Shown here in pieces: positions 36,339 through 42,465 of a DNA stretch of 64,000 nt. This stretch comes from Alteromonas salexigens. GTDB lineage: Bacteria; Pseudomonadota; Gammaproteobacteria; Enterobacterales; Alteromonadaceae. The notes beneath the pieces are model-generated. The model saw only the letters and a program-made list of their open reading frames with translations, had not been told where the DNA came from and searched no databases. The stretch lies in assembly GCF_025628895.1 (NCBI RefSeq), contig NZ_JAOTJC010000004.1:176388-240387 (forward strand), given 5' to 3'. The translations under genes were made by a program, and so were the position numbers. Within the stretch, counting starts at the first letter, position 1. The number at the start of each line of letters is the position of its first letter.

Positions 36339-36668
36339 GTGGCTAACGTAACATTAGAGACTGAATCAACGCTTACAGAGCGTTTTCAAACAACTGTACC
36401 CAGCCCTGTTCGTAAAGCTTTACACCTGAAGAAAAAAGACAAAATAAAGTATTCAATTCAGGCTGATGGCAGTGTTTTAATTACTAAACTCGCAGAAGAA
36501 GAAGTCGACCCAGTATTGGGCGAATTTCTTGCCTTTTTAGAACATGATATTAAGAAAAACCCCTCAAATTTGCAGCCACTGGGGGAAGATTTGCGCAATA
36601 GTGTAAGCGACTTGGTAGCAGGTGTTGAATTTGATTTGGATACGCCGTTATCAGACGAGGATGAATAA
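36339..36668 (+). CDS. prlF: Type II antitoxin PrlF (SohA)
   Basis: 109 aa. GTG start at 36339 preceded by GGAGGTGG. The N-terminal 55 residues match the AbrB/SpoVT swapped-hairpin DNA-binding fold of PrlF (ESTLTERFQTTVPSPVRKALHLKKKDKIKYSI). The acidic C-terminal half (FLAFLEHDIKKNPSNLQPL, GVEFDLDTPLSDEDE) corresponds to the toxin-binding part. In E. coli PrlF neutralises the ribosome-dependent RNase YhaV and represses the operon. Only 2 nt separate it from the toxin gene. Confidence 0.92.
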   Translation: MANVTLETESTLTERFQTTVPSPVRKALHLKKKDKIKYSIQADGSVLITKLAEEEVDPVLGEFLAFLEHDIKKNPSNLQPLGEDLRNSVSDLVAGVEFDLDTPLSDEDE

Positions 36669-36670
36669 AC

Positions 36671-37132
36671 TTGCCTGCAAGCATGCCCATAGTCGTCAAC
36701 GGGTGGACTTTGTATACACATCCTTTATTTGTGGAACAAGTCCAATCGCTTCGTGAGAAAGTAGAGGCACTGAAAGCAAAAGATCCCCATGGATATAAAA
36801 ACAAGAACGCTACAAAGCGGTTAGCAGCCATTTACAAGATTATCTTCGAAACTATACCGCAAGATCCGACGCTGCCCGAATACAGGCAGGGTAAAACTTT
36901 AGGCGCTCAGAATAAGCATTGGTTTAGGGCGAAGTTCTTTCAGCAGTACCGTCTTTTTTTCAGGTATCATGTCAAATCTAAGTTGATCGTATACGCTTGG
37001 GTCAATGATGAAAAATGTAGACGAGCATACGGAAGTAAAAGTGATGCGTATAAGGTGTTTGCTCAAATGATTGCGTCAGGAAACCCTCCCAATGATTGGG
37101 ATCAGCTTTTAAGCGAAGCAAAAAAAAGCTGA
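36671..37132 (+). CDS. yhaV: Type II toxin YhaV, RelE-like mRNA endoribonuclease
   Basis: 153 aa with TTG at 36671 (GAGG about 10 nt upstream) or 149 aa from the ATG at 36683; the latter begins MPIVVNGWTLYTHPLF, matching E. coli YhaV from its VNGWALYAHPCF. Conserved segments run full length: KNATKRLAAIYKII, FRQGKTLG-type (YRQGKTLGAQNKHWFRAKF), YRLFFRYH, WVNDEKCRRAYGSKSDAYKVFAQM and NPPNDWDQLL. No truncation, so the pair looks functional. Basic and AT-richer than the surrounding core genes. Confidence 0.92.
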   Translation: MPASMPIVVNGWTLYTHPLFVEQVQSLREKVEALKAKDPHGYKNKNATKRLAAIYKIIFETIPQDPTLPEYRQGKTLGAQNKHWFRAKFFQQYRLFFRYHVKSKLIVYAWVNDEKCRRAYGSKSDAYKVFAQMIASGNPPNDWDQLLSEAKKS

Positions 37133-37608: not shown

Positions 37609-37710
37609 CAGGAAGAAGTCGCGCGTAATGCACAGCGATTGCAGAATACTTAGCCAGTCGCATCACGGCTAGGTTTTCTCCGCCACCATCGCCGCACGGG
37701 CCTCTACCTG
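37609..37710 (+). repeat. Direct repeat copy B: remnant of coiled-coil gene end joined to the sensor gene end
   Basis: 37609-37670 repeats the 3' end of the coiled-coil gene (copy A 35903-35964) with an in-frame TAG and other changes, so it is a dead remnant. It runs straight into the live C-terminal codons of the hybrid sensor (EARAAMVAEKT). About 35 bases present in copy A between the two parts are missing. Confidence 0.75.
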
Positions 37711-40700
37711 GTATTGGGTGGGAGACTTGTTGAATTTATTTCGAAAGCTGCTACTGAAGTAAGATGGGGTGCCAAAGCCTACCGCAAACGCTACCTCTGT
37801 AATGACCTCGCCCTCGGCAAGTAAAATAGTGGCTTTATCAAGGCGGTAATTTCGCAGGTATTCCGTGAACGGACAATCGAACAATTCGGAGACTTTGCGA
37901 TTTAATTGCCGCTCACTTATTAATAGGGCCGCGGCCGCGTCAGCACGTCCGAACTTATCGTTAGAGTAATTTTTCTCAATTACCGCCATGAAGTTTGTAT
38001 GAAACTCCAGATTTTTGCGACTGAGGAAGACGGGTACCTCTGTAGAGTTTTGTTCTTTCTCCACATTTTTTTCAAAATACTGCTGTACTTTTTCTTTGGA
38101 AGCCAGCAGGTTTTCAACACGCACTAGCAATTCACGTCGGTCGAAAGGCTTTTCGATAACATCATCAATTCCCGCTTTTAATGCACGCATTTTAACTTCT
38201 GCTTTTGCCGTCAACAAGATTGTAGGTATTACGAAATTACTCTTTTCTGCACGGATTGCTGTAATAAAATCTACGCCGTTCGTGTCGGGCATTACATGGT
38301 CTGTTACGATTAAGTCAGGTTTGTATACTGCCATCAAATCCCTAGCATTAGTGGCATTTCTGGCAGTAACGCACCGATAGTGTTGCTTAAAAATATCAAA
38401 CAAGTGTGCCCGCATATCACGGTTGTCTTCTATTACTAGTATGACCGCACTATTCTCAATAAGGGCATTTTCTTCATCAACATTGGCCGGTTCATTTCCC
38501 TGACCCGTTTGTGATGCATCGTTGATGTTTATCCAGTCAACTCCCAGTAGGTTCCATCCCACGAGTCCTTTGAAAGGAATCGTTACCTCAAACACGCTGC
38601 CCTCCCCAAGTTTACTCTTAACTACAATGTGACCACCGTTTGCTTTCACTATTTCTCGTACCATCGCTAGACCAACTCCAGAGCCACACTCTTCGTTGCT
38701 ACCGACTCGTGTAAAACGAGTGAAGATACTCTCGGTATCTTCAGGGGCGATACCTACCCCTTCATCCGTGACCCTAATGACCAAATCATTTCGCGAGCGT
38801 CGGGCACGAATCTTAATTAACGACCCCTCTGAAGAGTATTTACTGGCATTCGTTATCAGATTGGAAAGAATTTTCTCCAGTGAATCCCCCCGCAACATAA
38901 TTTTAATGTTGCCCTCTACTGTAGCATCAATAACTTGGCGCTTTTTCTCCACGAATGGTTGCAACTGAATTACGGTGCTATTTATAGCATTCTTCACAAC
39001 GCATTTAGCAACTGGCATATTAGAAAAGTCACTTAGCTTTTCAATATGGATTACCTGGTTTATCAGACACTCAAGCCGCTCCGTCTGGCTAAGTGCTCGG
39101 TTTATTTTTTCACAAACAGCCTTATTACTTTTGGCATCTTTTAACGCCAACTCAAGTGGCCCTTTGATAAGCATTACCGGTGTGCGCATCTCGTGAGAAA
39201 TATTGCTAAGTAGTTTTTGTTTTTCATTAATAGTATTCATCATAGAATTATCTTTTCTCTGAAAAACAAACTCTTTGTTGTTAACTATCACTGAAAATAA
39301 ATCGCTGATAAATATTAGCTTTGACCTTAACTTAGTTTTCCACAGTAACACCATAGTTAAAGCCAAAAGGGCATAAGTAAAAAATGCATACCAGGTCAAC
39401 CATATCGGCGGTGGCACCACTATATGCAATGAAGCTGACTTGGCTAGAGACCCTTTCCATGGAGAGTTCACCCGTAGTTGAAGCTCATAACTTCCAGCAT
39501 CTAAGGTAGAGTAAGTCACTGTATCATTAGGACCTTCCGTATCATTCCACTCTTCTGATAAACCAAGAAGTCTATATTGAAGTCTCTCCTGTCCGTTAAG
39601 CAGTTGTGCTGGGTTAACTATATCGACCTCGAATAAAAACTCCTCTCTGCTAAGTTGGATTGCTGTGCCCGATGCTATTGCTTTAGAAAATCTATCAACC
39701 ACTGGCGTGAGCATTCGTCTATTTTCGTCAAACGTACGCATTTCCTGAAAATATGCTGCGGACTTATTAAAACTATTTGTTCTTAAAAAATTTTGTAGCT
39801 CTGTGTTATTCAAAATATAATTAAACTCGTCCCCTCTTATTAAAGTAATCTCCCCGTTACTCGCTACACCGTCATATTCGTAGTCAGAATTAAATATAGA
39901 AAAATCTGGACCTAATTCTCTATGTAACTTAAGTTCCTTGTCGATTATGAAAAGACCGTTGCTCGTCGTTACAACAAGTATATCTTTTGAAACTTGCGCT
40001 ACACCTCTAATATTAGGTTCTGTAAAATATTCTAGACGTTCTGACCTTCCGCTATTAAGATCGATCTCTACCAATCCGCCACCAGAAGTGCAAGCAATGA
40101 GCAAATTATTGTTTATTTGTGTAAGACAAATAATATTCTGCAGGCTAAAATCATGATTCGGGGATATTTTTACTAGATCACCATTAGTATACAACTTATA
40201 GATACCGTCCCCATCAACACCGATAAACGCTTGCTGGTCATCAGACCCTAAAACTACTGATGCCTTTTTAAAGCTCTTTATAGTGGTCTCTCTTCCAGAT
40301 GTTATTAATAAATCTTCTCCCTCAATTGATTCTGATATAACGTACTCTATATTTTCCCCAACCACTGTTGCATCAATAACTTTTCCACTGTAAGTTGTTT
40401 TATCGATAACTCTAAGAATACCGCCAGTTAATGGGTTAATTTTAAATTTATTTCCAACTTCGTCTATGATTTTGTATTCGTATTCATTTTCGCCCATTAC
40501 ATATAAGTCATAGTCTGTATCTAATTCATATTTTTTTAATAATTCTCCGCTTGAAGAAAACGAATATAACGACGACGAAGATGTGAACAAAAAACCTTTT
40601 TCTTTAGTTACATAAACATCATTTATATATTCGTTGAAGACCTCATTTTTTACGTATAAAAGATCTATAACCTCTGATCTCCGTGCAACTACTGCTAAAC

Positions 40701-41685
40701 CTTTCTGCCAATCATAAATTAAAACATTTCCGTCTCTATCAAAATCCACTTGACTTAGATTTAAGTCTCCTCTACTCCTAAGGTAATTAGGGAGGCTTAA
40801 GGGAGGTAGCACACTATTACCGAATTTATCAAGCTTTAATATTTTATTTCCTACAACCCAAACTTCACCGGTTGAAGATATTTCTATATCTTCAACCGAA
40901 TACTCATACTTTTTGCTACTATTTTCACTTTCAATTTTCAGTGGATAATAACGCTCAACTGTCATGCTTCTATCCACTAAAAAAAGTCCTCTATTTGTTC
41001 CTACATATACTTTGTCATCAAGCATTTTTAGAGATGAAATTCTTCTTACTTCATCTGAAAAACTTGATAGGGGAAGATGTTTCCACGTATCCTTGGTAGT
41101 ATCGTACTGAAATAGTCCCTTTTTCTTATCAGACCACCACAAAATTGAGCCGTCATAATTTCCTGATAAATTTAAAATTTTATCCTGATTTACTATCCCC
41201 TCTTTCCTAAAGTTTCTAATGATCTTTGCAGAGCTTTTCTCAATTAGGAATATGTTCGTAACGGTGCTCACCGCTACTTTGTCAGGAAAAACAACAGACG
41301 TCCAAGCTGCGTTTAAAATTTCAGATTTCCCATTAATGAATGGCGTTTCTTGGTAGCTATACTTATTTAAGAGATAAAGACCTTTCCCAAAGACAGCAAT
41401 AAGTAATTGTGACTCGTTAAAGTTATCAATATCTGTAATGTAACCGTTACGTATGACACTTCCCTCCTTGCCCACTTTTTTTGCATTTGCACCGACCTTT
41501 TCATAGAGCCCGTTTTCACCACCAATCCAAATTTTTGATTCATCTACATGGATAGCTCTCACTATCCCAAGCGAGTGCCCGTCTATGCTGTTCTGATATT
41601 TGATAAAGTCTGAGATGCTTCCGCACACTTTAGAAGCAAAGCCTGTCGTAACAAAGACCAGCAATATAAACAGTCCATGTCTCAT
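37669..41685 (-). CDS. Hybrid two-component sensor/regulator (propeller, HisKA, HATPase, receiver, AraC)
   Basis: 1338 aa one-protein phosphorelay. A signal peptide (MRHGLFILLVFVTTGFA) leads into a periplasmic region of about 740 residues with repeated strand motifs of two-component propeller (Reg_prop) blades (IWIGGENGLYEK, VYVGTNRGLFLV) and a Y_Y_Y-type domain (LQYRLLGLSEEWND, AGSYELQLRV). TM is at about 760-782. Kinase: His831 in ISHEMRTP, N box NLITNASKY, G boxes DEGVGIAPED and GSGVGLAM. Receiver with Asp1129 in VTDHVMPD. AraC-type HTH at about 1235-1330. The N-terminal half is clearly AT-richer than the kinase half. Divergent from the small peptide gene. Confidence 0.94.
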   Translation of the reverse strand: MRHGLFILLVFVTTGFASKVCGSISDFIKYQNSIDGHSLGIVRAIHVDESKIWIGGENGLYEKVGANAKKVGKEGSVIRNGYITDIDNFNESQLLIAVFGKGLYLLNKYSYQETPFINGKSEILNAAWTSVVFPDKVAVSTVTNIFLIEKSSAKIIRNFRKEGIVNQDKILNLSGNYDGSILWWSDKKKGLFQYDTTKDTWKHLPLSSFSDEVRRISSLKMLDDKVYVGTNRGLFLVDRSMTVERYYPLKIESENSSKKYEYSVEDIEISSTGEVWVVGNKILKLDKFGNSVLPPLSLPNYLRSRGDLNLSQVDFDRDGNVLIYDWQKGLAVVARRSEVIDLLYVKNEVFNEYINDVYVTKEKGFLFTSSSSLYSFSSSGELLKKYELDTDYDLYVMGENEYEYKIIDEVGNKFKINPLTGGILRVIDKTTYSGKVIDATVVGENIEYVISESIEGEDLLITSGRETTIKSFKKASVVLGSDDQQAFIGVDGDGIYKLYTNGDLVKISPNHDFSLQNIICLTQINNNLLIACTSGGGLVEIDLNSGRSERLEYFTEPNIRGVAQVSKDILVVTTSNGLFIIDKELKLHRELGPDFSIFNSDYEYDGVASNGEITLIRGDEFNYILNNTELQNFLRTNSFNKSAAYFQEMRTFDENRRMLTPVVDRFSKAIASGTAIQLSREEFLFEVDIVNPAQLLNGQERLQYRLLGLSEEWNDTEGPNDTVTYSTLDAGSYELQLRVNSPWKGSLAKSASLHIVVPPPIWLTWYAFFTYALLALTMVLLWKTKLRSKLIFISDLFSVIVNNKEFVFQRKDNSMMNTINEKQKLLSNISHEMRTPVMLIKGPLELALKDAKSNKAVCEKINRALSQTERLECLINQVIHIEKLSDFSNMPVAKCVVKNAINSTVIQLQPFVEKKRQVIDATVEGNIKIMLRGDSLEKILSNLITNASKYSSEGSLIKIRARRSRNDLVIRVTDEGVGIAPEDTESIFTRFTRVGSNEECGSGVGLAMVREIVKANGGHIVVKSKLGEGSVFEVTIPFKGLVGWNLLGVDWININDASQTGQGNEPANVDEENALIENSAVILVIEDNRDMRAHLFDIFKQHYRCVTARNATNARDLMAVYKPDLIVTDHVMPDTNGVDFITAIRAEKSNFVIPTILLTAKAEVKMRALKAGIDDVIEKPFDRRELLVRVENLLASKEKVQQYFEKNVEKEQNSTEVPVFLSRKNLEFHTNFMAVIEKNYSNDKFGRADAAAALLISERQLNRKVSELFDCPFTEYLRNYRLDKATILLAEGEVITEVAFAVGFGTPSYFSSSFRNKFNKSPTQYQVEARAAMVAEKT

Positions 41686-41803
41686 TAGTTTAATCTCCGG
41701 TCCTTATTTTGAATGAAGGTGAGCATTCAACGTGTTCAATTAACCATGCGCGGAAACAAGCGCCACGGCATTTATATAAAATATACAACTATGAGAGCAT
41801 AAA
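41686..41803. promoter_or_regulatory. Divergent promoter region between hybrid sensor and small peptide gene
   Basis: 118 bp. It holds a 7-bp inverted repeat TTGAATG (41709-41715) / CATTCAA (41724-41730), overlapped by a short direct repeat TTCAACGTGTTCAA. A TATAAA at 41775-41780 is a possible -10 for the peptide gene. The repeats are candidate sites for the sensor's own AraC domain; inference only. Confidence 0.45.
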
Positions 41804-41965
41804 ATGGAAGATAATAAAGAACAAAATTCAACCAAAGTTTTAGATGAGGAGGAAATCTTGTTGGTAACTGGAGCCGGGTCAAGCTGCTGCAATCTGAAAT
41901 ATGATGAGTATTTTTATAAAGGTCCTTATCCCAAGAATCCAAAGGATCCCGCGGTTAAGATCTAA
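41804..41965 (+). CDS. 53-aa peptide with double-glycine-type leader: candidate RiPP or bacteriocin precursor
   Basis: ATG at 41804 (GAGAG about 7 nt upstream), TAA at 41963-41965. The first 24 residues are acidic and end in LDEEEILLVTGA, which fits the double-glycine leader pattern position by position: Leu -12, acidic -11 to -8, Ile -7, Val -4, Gly -2, Ala -1. The remaining 29 residues begin GSSCC and continue NLKYDEYFYKGPYPKNPK, with two adjacent Cys, four Tyr/Phe in a cluster and four Pro. This suggests export and cleavage by a C39-peptidase ABC transporter, with or without modification. No such transporter or modifying enzyme lies in the window. Too short for routine ORF cut-offs. Confidence 0.6.
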   Translation: MEDNKEQNSTKVLDEEEILLVTGAGSSCCNLKYDEYFYKGPYPKNPKDPAVKI

Positions 41966-42465
41966 ACCAACCACCACCGCATGCCGGCATTCTCTGCCGC
42001 CATGCGGTCGTAGATAAAATCTCCCACATACAAACAATGGGCAGGCGGTAATTGCCACTGGCTGGCTATCTGTAGCAGGGCAGTGGGGTCCGGTTTGGGT
42101 GGGGCATCTTCCCGGGTGAGCACCAGGCTTATGGGCACCTGGTTGTTCTGCAATTTAATGGTGGTGGCTTGCCGACAGTTGCGGGTCACTATGGCCATAG
42201 GCAACTGATGTTGCAGTATATTTTCTACCATCTCTCTGCCCAGTGGCAACCATTTGGCGGTGTCAGCGTCTTCCAGTTCGTGCTGAAGAATGCGCTCTTG
42301 TGCCTGTTGTTTGGTGGTTGCGCAGGTGATCGCCTCAACAAATTCCAGAATATCCTGATCCTGAGGACAGCCGACATCGTCGCGCATTCTGGTAAAGTTA
42401 AGTCTGGACTCCACCAACGTGCCATCCAAATCAAAAATAACGCCTTTAATGTTGGTAAGATCCAC
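41962..42465 (-). CDS. HAD-superfamily phosphatase
   Basis: 167 aa, small Rossmannoid hydrolase. Motif I is FDLDGT (Asp12 nucleophile, Asp14 acid/base); motif II is the Thr of AIVTRN, motif III Lys in PPKPDP, and motif IV VGDFIYD. A helical cap lies between motifs I and II (about 18-85). It resembles phosphoglycolate phosphatase-like members but the substrate cannot be assigned. Its stop overlaps the convergent peptide gene by 4 bp; 52 nt downstream of umuC on the same strand, possibly read through from it. Confidence 0.85.
   Translation of the reverse strand: MDLTNIKGVIFDLDGTLVESRLNFTRMRDDVGCPQDQDILEFVEAITCATTKQQAQERILQHELEDADTAKWLPLGREMVENILQHQLPMAIVTRNCRQATTIKLQNNQVPISLVLTREDAPPKPDPTALLQIASQWQLPPAHCLYVGDFIYDRMAAENAGMRWWLV

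Follow-up and report, generated by a model that had tools for sequence, protein, structure and literature searches.

A double-glycine leader peptide encoded divergently from a hybrid two-component sensor in Alteromonas salexigens: joint variation of core and sensor in Alteromonadaceae

Introduction

The window considered here is a stretch of 64,000 nucleotides from the 3.55 Mb genome of Alteromonas salexigens (contig NZ_JAOTJC010000004.1, positions 176,388 to 240,387 of the forward strand). It contains an open reading frame (ORF) for a peptide of 53 aa, divergent from the gene of a 1338-aa hybrid two-component sensor (HTCS), with 118 bp between the two. The locus raises the question of what the peptide is to the sensor: a product that the sensor switches on, as proposed in the original prediction made from the letters of this DNA, or the ligand that the sensor perceives.

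The 53-aa ORF is confirmed as real and reads as a precursor with a double-glycine (GG) leader. The leader is conserved and the core hypervariable among relatives in the Alteromonadaceae, and core, promoter and propeller sensor are shown to be exchanged as one block between conserved flanks. From these sequence comparisons it appears probable that the peptide, exported by a C39-peptidase ABC transporter, would bind its own divergent HTCS as a ligand.

Peptide family

Translation of the ORF gives the leader MEDNKEQNSTKVLDEEEILLVTGA followed by the core GSSCCNLKYDEYFYKGPYPKNPKDPAVKI. The leader carries L at position -12, E at -8, I at -7, V at -4, G at -2 and A at -1, and thus the GG-leader motif, as originally read. 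No Pfam or NCBIfam family was matched by the peptide, and no significant homologue was found in 60 relatives, in 59 genomes of the genus or in a scan of genome contigs; matches in the first two sets were weak (E 0.01-1). The family of the peptide is visible by position only.

The sensor half has matches at E 1e-30 in 22 of the 59 genus genomes, and a small divergent GG-leader ORF lies upstream of the sensor in 21 of them; none was found in the exception (G011), where the gap was also read by eye. A sensor profile (A2, built from 18 of the 22 sensors) matched 53 of 395 sampled genomes of the family, representing 11 of 52 genera, and 8 of 394 sampled genomes of the order, all within the same family. 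Both searches drew on samples; the family sample did not include 19 of the genus genomes that lacked a sensor match at E 1e-30. The relatives with assigned names are mostly Alteromonas, with one Salinimonas chungwhensis.

A GG-leader ORF was present at 50 of the 62 loci examined (36/38 of the own genus, 14/24 of other genera); 45 were found by a strict regular expression, two by a looser one and three by hand. For the strict expression, 0.03 of the 62 loci would be expected to match by chance (100 dinucleotide shuffles per locus); it matched none of the 62 on the reverse strand, and elsewhere a single one of 2,690 stretches. The looser expression matched 47/62 loci, with 0.68 expected, two on the reverse strand and 64 of the 2,690 other stretches. 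One of its matches (L162), presumably a transposon gene, was taken off the list by hand, L146, L148 and L149 were added by hand, and L140, with only 288 bases upstream, was scored as a miss. In a later sensor-based scan, 9/9 previously unseen HTCS loci had a strict GG-leader ORF, which brings the overall count to 59 of 71 homologous HTCS loci in the Alteromonadaceae.

Other sensors lack such an ORF. None of five other Y_Y_Y sensors of the own genome had one (five of the six other matches; the one left out, C14:2726, was the weakest, E 0.007), and neither expression found one at the 23 loci examined in 10 genomes for two control propeller kinases and their relatives. The ratio of nonsynonymous to synonymous polymorphism (pN/pS) between close relatives was 0.26 overall, 0.09 in the leader and 0.35 in the core (pooled over 10 non-independent pairs); such values are as expected of coding ORFs. 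A chance ORF is ruled out by the shuffle controls and by pN/pS.

Among the 59 leaders, position -12 is L or I in 56, position -8 is D or E in 54 and position -4 is V or I in 57; G stands at -2 in 50 and at -1 in 56. This uniformity is inflated by the way the leaders were selected (54 by the strict expression, two by the looser one, three by hand), and the leader of L142 was cut one residue early. The 59 cores are 24-43 residues long, with 14% Pro and 8% Lys, and Pro is enriched in their second half (0.20 vs 0.08).

The original prediction is partly supported. Its GG-leader precursor is supported by the motif, the positional family and the chance control, the pairing with a propeller-kinase-AraC protein proves to be a conserved feature (59/71 loci), and the contrast between a conserved leader and a variable core holds among the positional homologues. 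The homologues that it called for were not found by sequence in the collections searched; they were found by position, with a conserved leader and a co-occurring sensor. Its Cys-Cys core was not borne out as a family trait: Cys occurs in 14/59 cores, at least two Cys in 3/59, and CC in the window peptide only. Cys-Cys chemistry (disulphide or lanthionine) was rejected as the defining trait on that count.

Two loci of genus g57 (L156 and L159) have no GG peptide. Upstream of the HTCS, each has a different small ORF, also divergent, whose product begins with a hydrophobic stretch and contains two Cys in a short motif (KCRDKREKCD and KCKKVRQDCD); it is perhaps a Sec-exported counterpart. At L079 (G073) and L087 (G077) the HTCS frame is only 1143 and 1095 aa long, respectively, and the C-terminal part lies in a frame of its own; the sensor and peptide frames are open.

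Joint variation of core and sensor

At the first 22 loci the sensor has a median pairwise identity of 0.20, kinase plus receiver one of 0.36 and the helix-turn-helix (HTH) domain, compared at 20 loci, one of 0.47. Between A. marina (G067) and A. abrolhosensis (G020) the kinases are 99%, the receivers 100% and the products of the flanking HAD-family hydrolase gene 96% identical; the sensors are 36% identical, and core similarity is 0.15. At the DNA level, identity in this pair is 0.98 both in the kinase and in the 60 bp that follow the peptide stop codon. Between these flanks it is 0.47 over the sensor, 0.39 over the intergenic region, 0.83 over the leader and 0.52 over the core; at the left border it drops within about 100 bp where sensor and kinase meet.

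The same pattern of a swapped block was found in G008/L235, with kinases 97% identical. In G068/L242 (kinase 97%) the left border is shifted by about 300 bp into the sensor gene: DNA identity is 0.94-0.99 from -2500 to -2000 and 0.43 just after, which by residue count puts the border, as an estimate, near the end of the propeller and before Y_Y_Y. In G004/G022 (kinase 84%) the block is replaced, here together with a change in the leader (0.38). Leader DNA in the three cleanest swaps is 0.80-0.86 identical, as against 0.39-0.57 for intergenic DNA and core. The right border is no more than about 25 bp away from the stop codon of the peptide in 5/5 pairs, which are not independent and in which the end of the HAD gene is conserved anyway.

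Kinase identity is at least 0.70 in 50 pairs. The 21 of these with sensor identity of at most 0.45 all have core similarity of at most 0.27 (median 0.14), with a median leader identity of 0.70; the 29 with sensor identity of at least 0.50 have a median core similarity of 0.70. Not counted here are pairs in which the open frame stops short of the kinase or within it, since these give no kinase value. Among all 1,711 pairs, the 1,555 with sensor identity below 0.35 have core similarity of at most 0.27 without exception, which may be compared with shuffled cores (95% at 0.11, maximum 0.25). Core similarity has a median of 0.15 and reaches 0.53 in the 109 pairs with sensor identity of 0.35-0.45, and has a median of 0.88 in the 16 pairs above 0.70. 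Similarity of cores in the group of G082 and in G025 comes partly from the end of the ORF, which apparently runs into the HAD gene in antisense.

The core is shared with the nearest-kinase partner in 11/29 cases and with the nearest-sensor partner in 23/30. The partial Mantel correlation of core with sensor, given kinase plus receiver, is 0.53 (n=50), or 0.26 after dereplication (n=38), both with p 0.0005. Core and sensor thus co-vary in a conserved background, as in pheromone systems with pherotypes, apart from two contrary pairs that are weighed below.

The core varies, and is exchanged, together with the predicted periplasmic sensor domain, which points to the peptide as a ligand and not just an output. 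An effector, that is, a microcin- or bacteriocin-like product switched on by an HTCS that senses something else, seems rather unlikely. A GG leader with a C39 exporter, the short shared divergent promoter region and the weak leader matches of one relative would suit it. In that relative, ComC scored 17.5 of the 20.4 bits required and bacteriocin_sig 15.0 of 15.7, with a further sub-threshold match to Bacteriocin_IIc; four relatives were tried (three with Pfam, four with NCBIfam), and the cut-offs of the ComC pheromone and class II bacteriocin families were not reached. However, no immunity-type gene was seen beside the peptide, whose neighbours are the HTCS and HAD genes, and the cores are short, Pro/Lys-rich and mostly free of Cys. 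The core also tracks the sensor domain and not the kinase/receiver half; a co-regulated effector would need no match to the sensor over the kinase half, although passenger transfer of two neighbouring genes is a possible alternative (see below). The direction originally proposed, in which the sensor switches the peptide, leaves out this joint variation, the strongest signal in the data.

The divergent sensor

The window protein has the HTCS domain set in one chain (Table 1) and a sensor with a BT4663-like fold, according to Pfam, a PDB profile search and AlphaFold/Foldseek. The profile search with the sensor found 4a2l (E 1.7e-52). The AlphaFold model of the region before Y_Y_Y, whose input alignment contained 25 of 28 Alteromonadaceae loci plus the window, has a mean pLDDT of 84, and its best Foldseek matches were BT4663, BT4673 and BT3049 (TM 0.68-0.75 for BT4663 and BT3049). 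The Reg_prop propeller model was absent from the Pfam matches up to E 0.1, so the propeller assignment rests on the fold. The sensor region models as a soluble propeller, predicted to be periplasmic. The candidate receptor is thus an HTCS with a modelled soluble propeller and not, as in streptococcal systems, a polytopic membrane histidine kinase.

C39 exporter

The original prediction placed the transporter elsewhere in the genome, and a C39-peptidase ABC exporter was found there, at C12:97749-99902 (E 1.6e-36). It is the only C39-ABC transporter of the own genome; a second C39 match is weak and lies in a 329-aa frame. Its cluster comprises HlyD, a LuxR-type regulator, a GG precursor and an ATP-grasp maturase-like protein, and the window peptide likely shares this exporter. 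C39 matches occur in 58/59 genus genomes, with ABC-size frames in 57; in each of the 22 genus genomes with a sensor match at E 1e-30, a frame of 720 aa or more contains one. A C39-ABC transporter thus accompanies the peptide in the same genome, with one exception among the later loci (G019).

Alteromonas aestuariivivens (G006; L139/L177/L236) has kept the HTCS, with no GG peptide found and no C39 match in the genome; a joint loss of peptide and C39 is possible. G115 likewise has neither a C39 match nor a peptide, and carries little weight because its HTCS belongs to a low-scoring group in which no member has a peptide. In G128 an HTCS without a GG ORF of its own stands divergent to a LuxR-HlyD-C39 cluster. 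In genus g34 (Aliiglaciecola) the distance between a C39 and the HTCS is about 13-20 kb in seven genomes and 45 kb in one more; these cases may go back to a single ancestral arrangement.

The cluster at C12 is graspetide-like (own G000:C12, L016 8494-13449; relatives L094-L109), with HlyD, C39-ABC, a GG precursor ending ..YITLAIGEGGGDLPD.. and ATP-grasp; the LuxR-type regulator is present in part of the genomes only. The gene beside it is presumably hslU. Of 18 C39 loci examined in relatives, 11 showed a GG precursor with a GE(G/D)GG motif, as did the own one. The window peptide as a substrate of the C12 ATP-grasp protein is not favoured, as the core ending ..YITLAIGEGGGDLPD.. was not seen in the 59 cores.

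Proposed mechanism and its assessment

In the proposed mechanism, cleavage of the precursor would occur after the GG-type site, and a C39 transporter, probably the chromosomal HlyD-C39 system, would bring the 29-aa core to the periplasm or the medium. There the core would bind a propeller sensor that matches it, either on the cell that made it or on another cell of that type, and signalling through kinase, receiver and AraC would control the short promoter between the two genes, among other targets. Sensor/core pairs of different kinds would form recognition groups like the pherotypes of Gram-positive bacteria, built on an HTCS receptor.

Several observations weigh against a peptide ligand. 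The pair counts given above are of non-independent events throughout. Two pairs are contrary to the trend (G016/G063, sensor 0.57 and core 0.03; G079/G015, sensor 0.65 and core 0.28), and the best kinase match of the window copy among the 59 is 0.45, too distant for its own swap to be seen directly; the swap is seen in relatives. No recognisable GG peptide was found at 12/71 loci, namely G011, G006, G098 (upstream region cut), G128 (two loci), G093, g57 (two) and four low-scoring HTCS of g38/g58/g70. The sensor fold is that of BT4663, whose title names heparin and heparan sulphate sensing.

Further points concern linkage and controls. Beyond what the kinase explains, the leader too is correlated with the sensor (partial correlation 0.47, n=50), so part of the core-sensor correlation is linkage. 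One control kinase (C10:393190-395529, with relatives L254-L262) has no GG ORF and yet shows divergent sensors in some close pairs: 0.48 in G067/G020, 0.50 in G000/G003 and 0.62 in G068/G002, with the kinase stretch at 0.91-0.95. Sensors without a linked GG peptide can thus be replaced as well. Across six pairs the two control kinases have sensor identities of 0.48-0.91 and 0.53-0.84, and the peptide-linked sensor lies below both in 6/6 (0.36, 0.23, 0.35, 0.19, 0.37 and 0.57).

Selection might thus act on the sensor, for example through a changing environmental ligand, and the adjacent peptide be carried in the same recombination tract. The contiguity of sensor, promoter and peptide would allow this, and both the C10 control, which varies without a peptide, and the leader-sensor correlation point the same way. 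Such a passenger is nevertheless decidedly unlikely: the leader DNA kept in the three cleanest swaps argues that the gene stays functional after exchange, the peptide is present at 59/71 loci, and the right border (with the reservations given above) lies close to its stop codon.

G019, too, weighs against an exported ligand: it has the peptide, and its only C39 match is in a 350-aa frame, with no C39-ABC. This genome also bears on a reading in which the unprocessed peptide modulates the HTCS inside the cell or at the membrane and the leader-like part is no cleavage signal. That reading is highly improbable, since the variable partner of the core is the predicted periplasmic region, the leaders (mostly selected by regular expression) fit the C39 consensus at each position, and G006 lacks C39 and peptide alike. 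A peptide that is exported and perceived as a ligand is preferred on the whole evidence.

A wider reading is that of a peptide-pheromone system in Gram-negative bacteria, by which Alteromonadaceae would discriminate kin from non-kin with linear GG-leader peptides, a shared C39 exporter and propeller HTCS, and in which cassettes exchanged between species would give rise to new pherotypes. The balance between this being so and not being so appears even.

Locus features

The coordinates of the features are collected in Table 1. The HAD gene is where the identity of swapped relatives resumes. No shared motif besides likely ribosome-binding sites was seen by eye between the two start codons, where no motif program was run. 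No ATP-grasp gene was recognised beside the precursor among the ORFs of 33-50 kb, read by eye, with Pfam applied only to the HTCS, the HAD protein and a toxin-antitoxin pair. This pair, PrlF/YhaV (36339-37132, plus strand; Pfam E 7.5e-36 and 1.2e-61), lies just past the 3' end of the HTCS gene.

Table 1. Features of the peptide-sensor locus, in coordinates of the window
Feature	Coordinates	Strand	Basis
GG-leader precursor peptide, 53 aa	41804..41965	+	ORF and translation; positional homologues; chance control
Leader, 24 aa, ends LDEEEILLVTGA	41804..41875	+	Translation; positional frequencies of 59 leaders
Core, 29 aa, Pro/Lys-rich tail; hypervariable across the family	41876..41962	+	Comparison of cores
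Shared divergent promoter region, 118 bp	41686..41803	.	
HTCS, 1338 aa: propeller by fold, Y_Y_Y, HisKA, HATPase, receiver, AraC HTH	37669..41685	-	
N-terminal helix and sensor region, residues 1-763; part swapped with peptide in relatives	39397..41685	-	
HisKA and HATPase_c, residues 822-1039	38569..39222	-	Pfam
Receiver domain, residues 1082-1190	38116..38442	-	Pfam
AraC-type HTH, residues 1251-1326	37708..37935	-	Pfam
HAD-family hydrolase gene; conserved flank, convergent; end overlaps peptide end by 4 bp	41962..42465	-	

Significance

Quorum sensing in Gram-negative bacteria is thought of mainly as small-molecule signalling. The parts of the present system are known; the pairing of a GG peptide with an HTCS and the cassette pattern look new. 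In open-licence papers, where absence is no proof, no pairing of GG-leader peptides with HTCS was found; nor were graspetides in Alteromonas found in papers of that kind. If the proposed reading is true, a type of ligand new to the HTCS receptor class would be added, and common marine bacteria would have a peptide language. Close relatives that differ at this locus almost only in the cassette are natural experiments, and position beside a fast-changing sensor offers a route to peptide discovery when sequence search fails.

Comparison with known systems

Class II microcins of Enterobacterales also combine a GG leader with C39 ABC export in Gram-negatives. The present locus differs from theirs in that no adjacent immunity or export gene was seen and the core is linked to a sensor domain.

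In the agr cassettes of staphylococci, signal and sensor halves co-vary as specificity groups, as they do here within a conserved locus. The agr peptides are thiolactones made by AgrB, whereas no AgrB-type gene was seen in this locus.

The HTCS of Bacteroides have the same domain order as the window sensor and are known as glycan sensors at polysaccharide loci. Their sensors BT4663 (PDB 4a2l/4a2m), BT3049 (3v9f) and BT4673 (3ott/3va6) share its fold. The window sensor differs in being paired with a variable peptide gene, where BT4663 is titled a sensor of heparin/heparan sulphate.

In ComC/ComD and Blp of streptococci a GG-leader precursor, a C39 exporter and an adjacent two-component receptor occur together, and a variable core matches a variable sensor region; pherotypes have reportedly been described for S. 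pneumoniae. The likeness extends to all of these traits and to the conserved output half. In streptococci the receptor is a polytopic membrane kinase and the regulator a separate protein, in contrast to the propeller HTCS with its fused AraC output; moreover, the present system is Gram-negative, its exporter is encoded outside the locus, and its cores have Pro/Lys-rich tails. Pheromone-receptor pairs of Gram-positive bacteria show the pattern of core-sensor swaps, and the swapping described here resembles these pheromone/receptor pherotypes.
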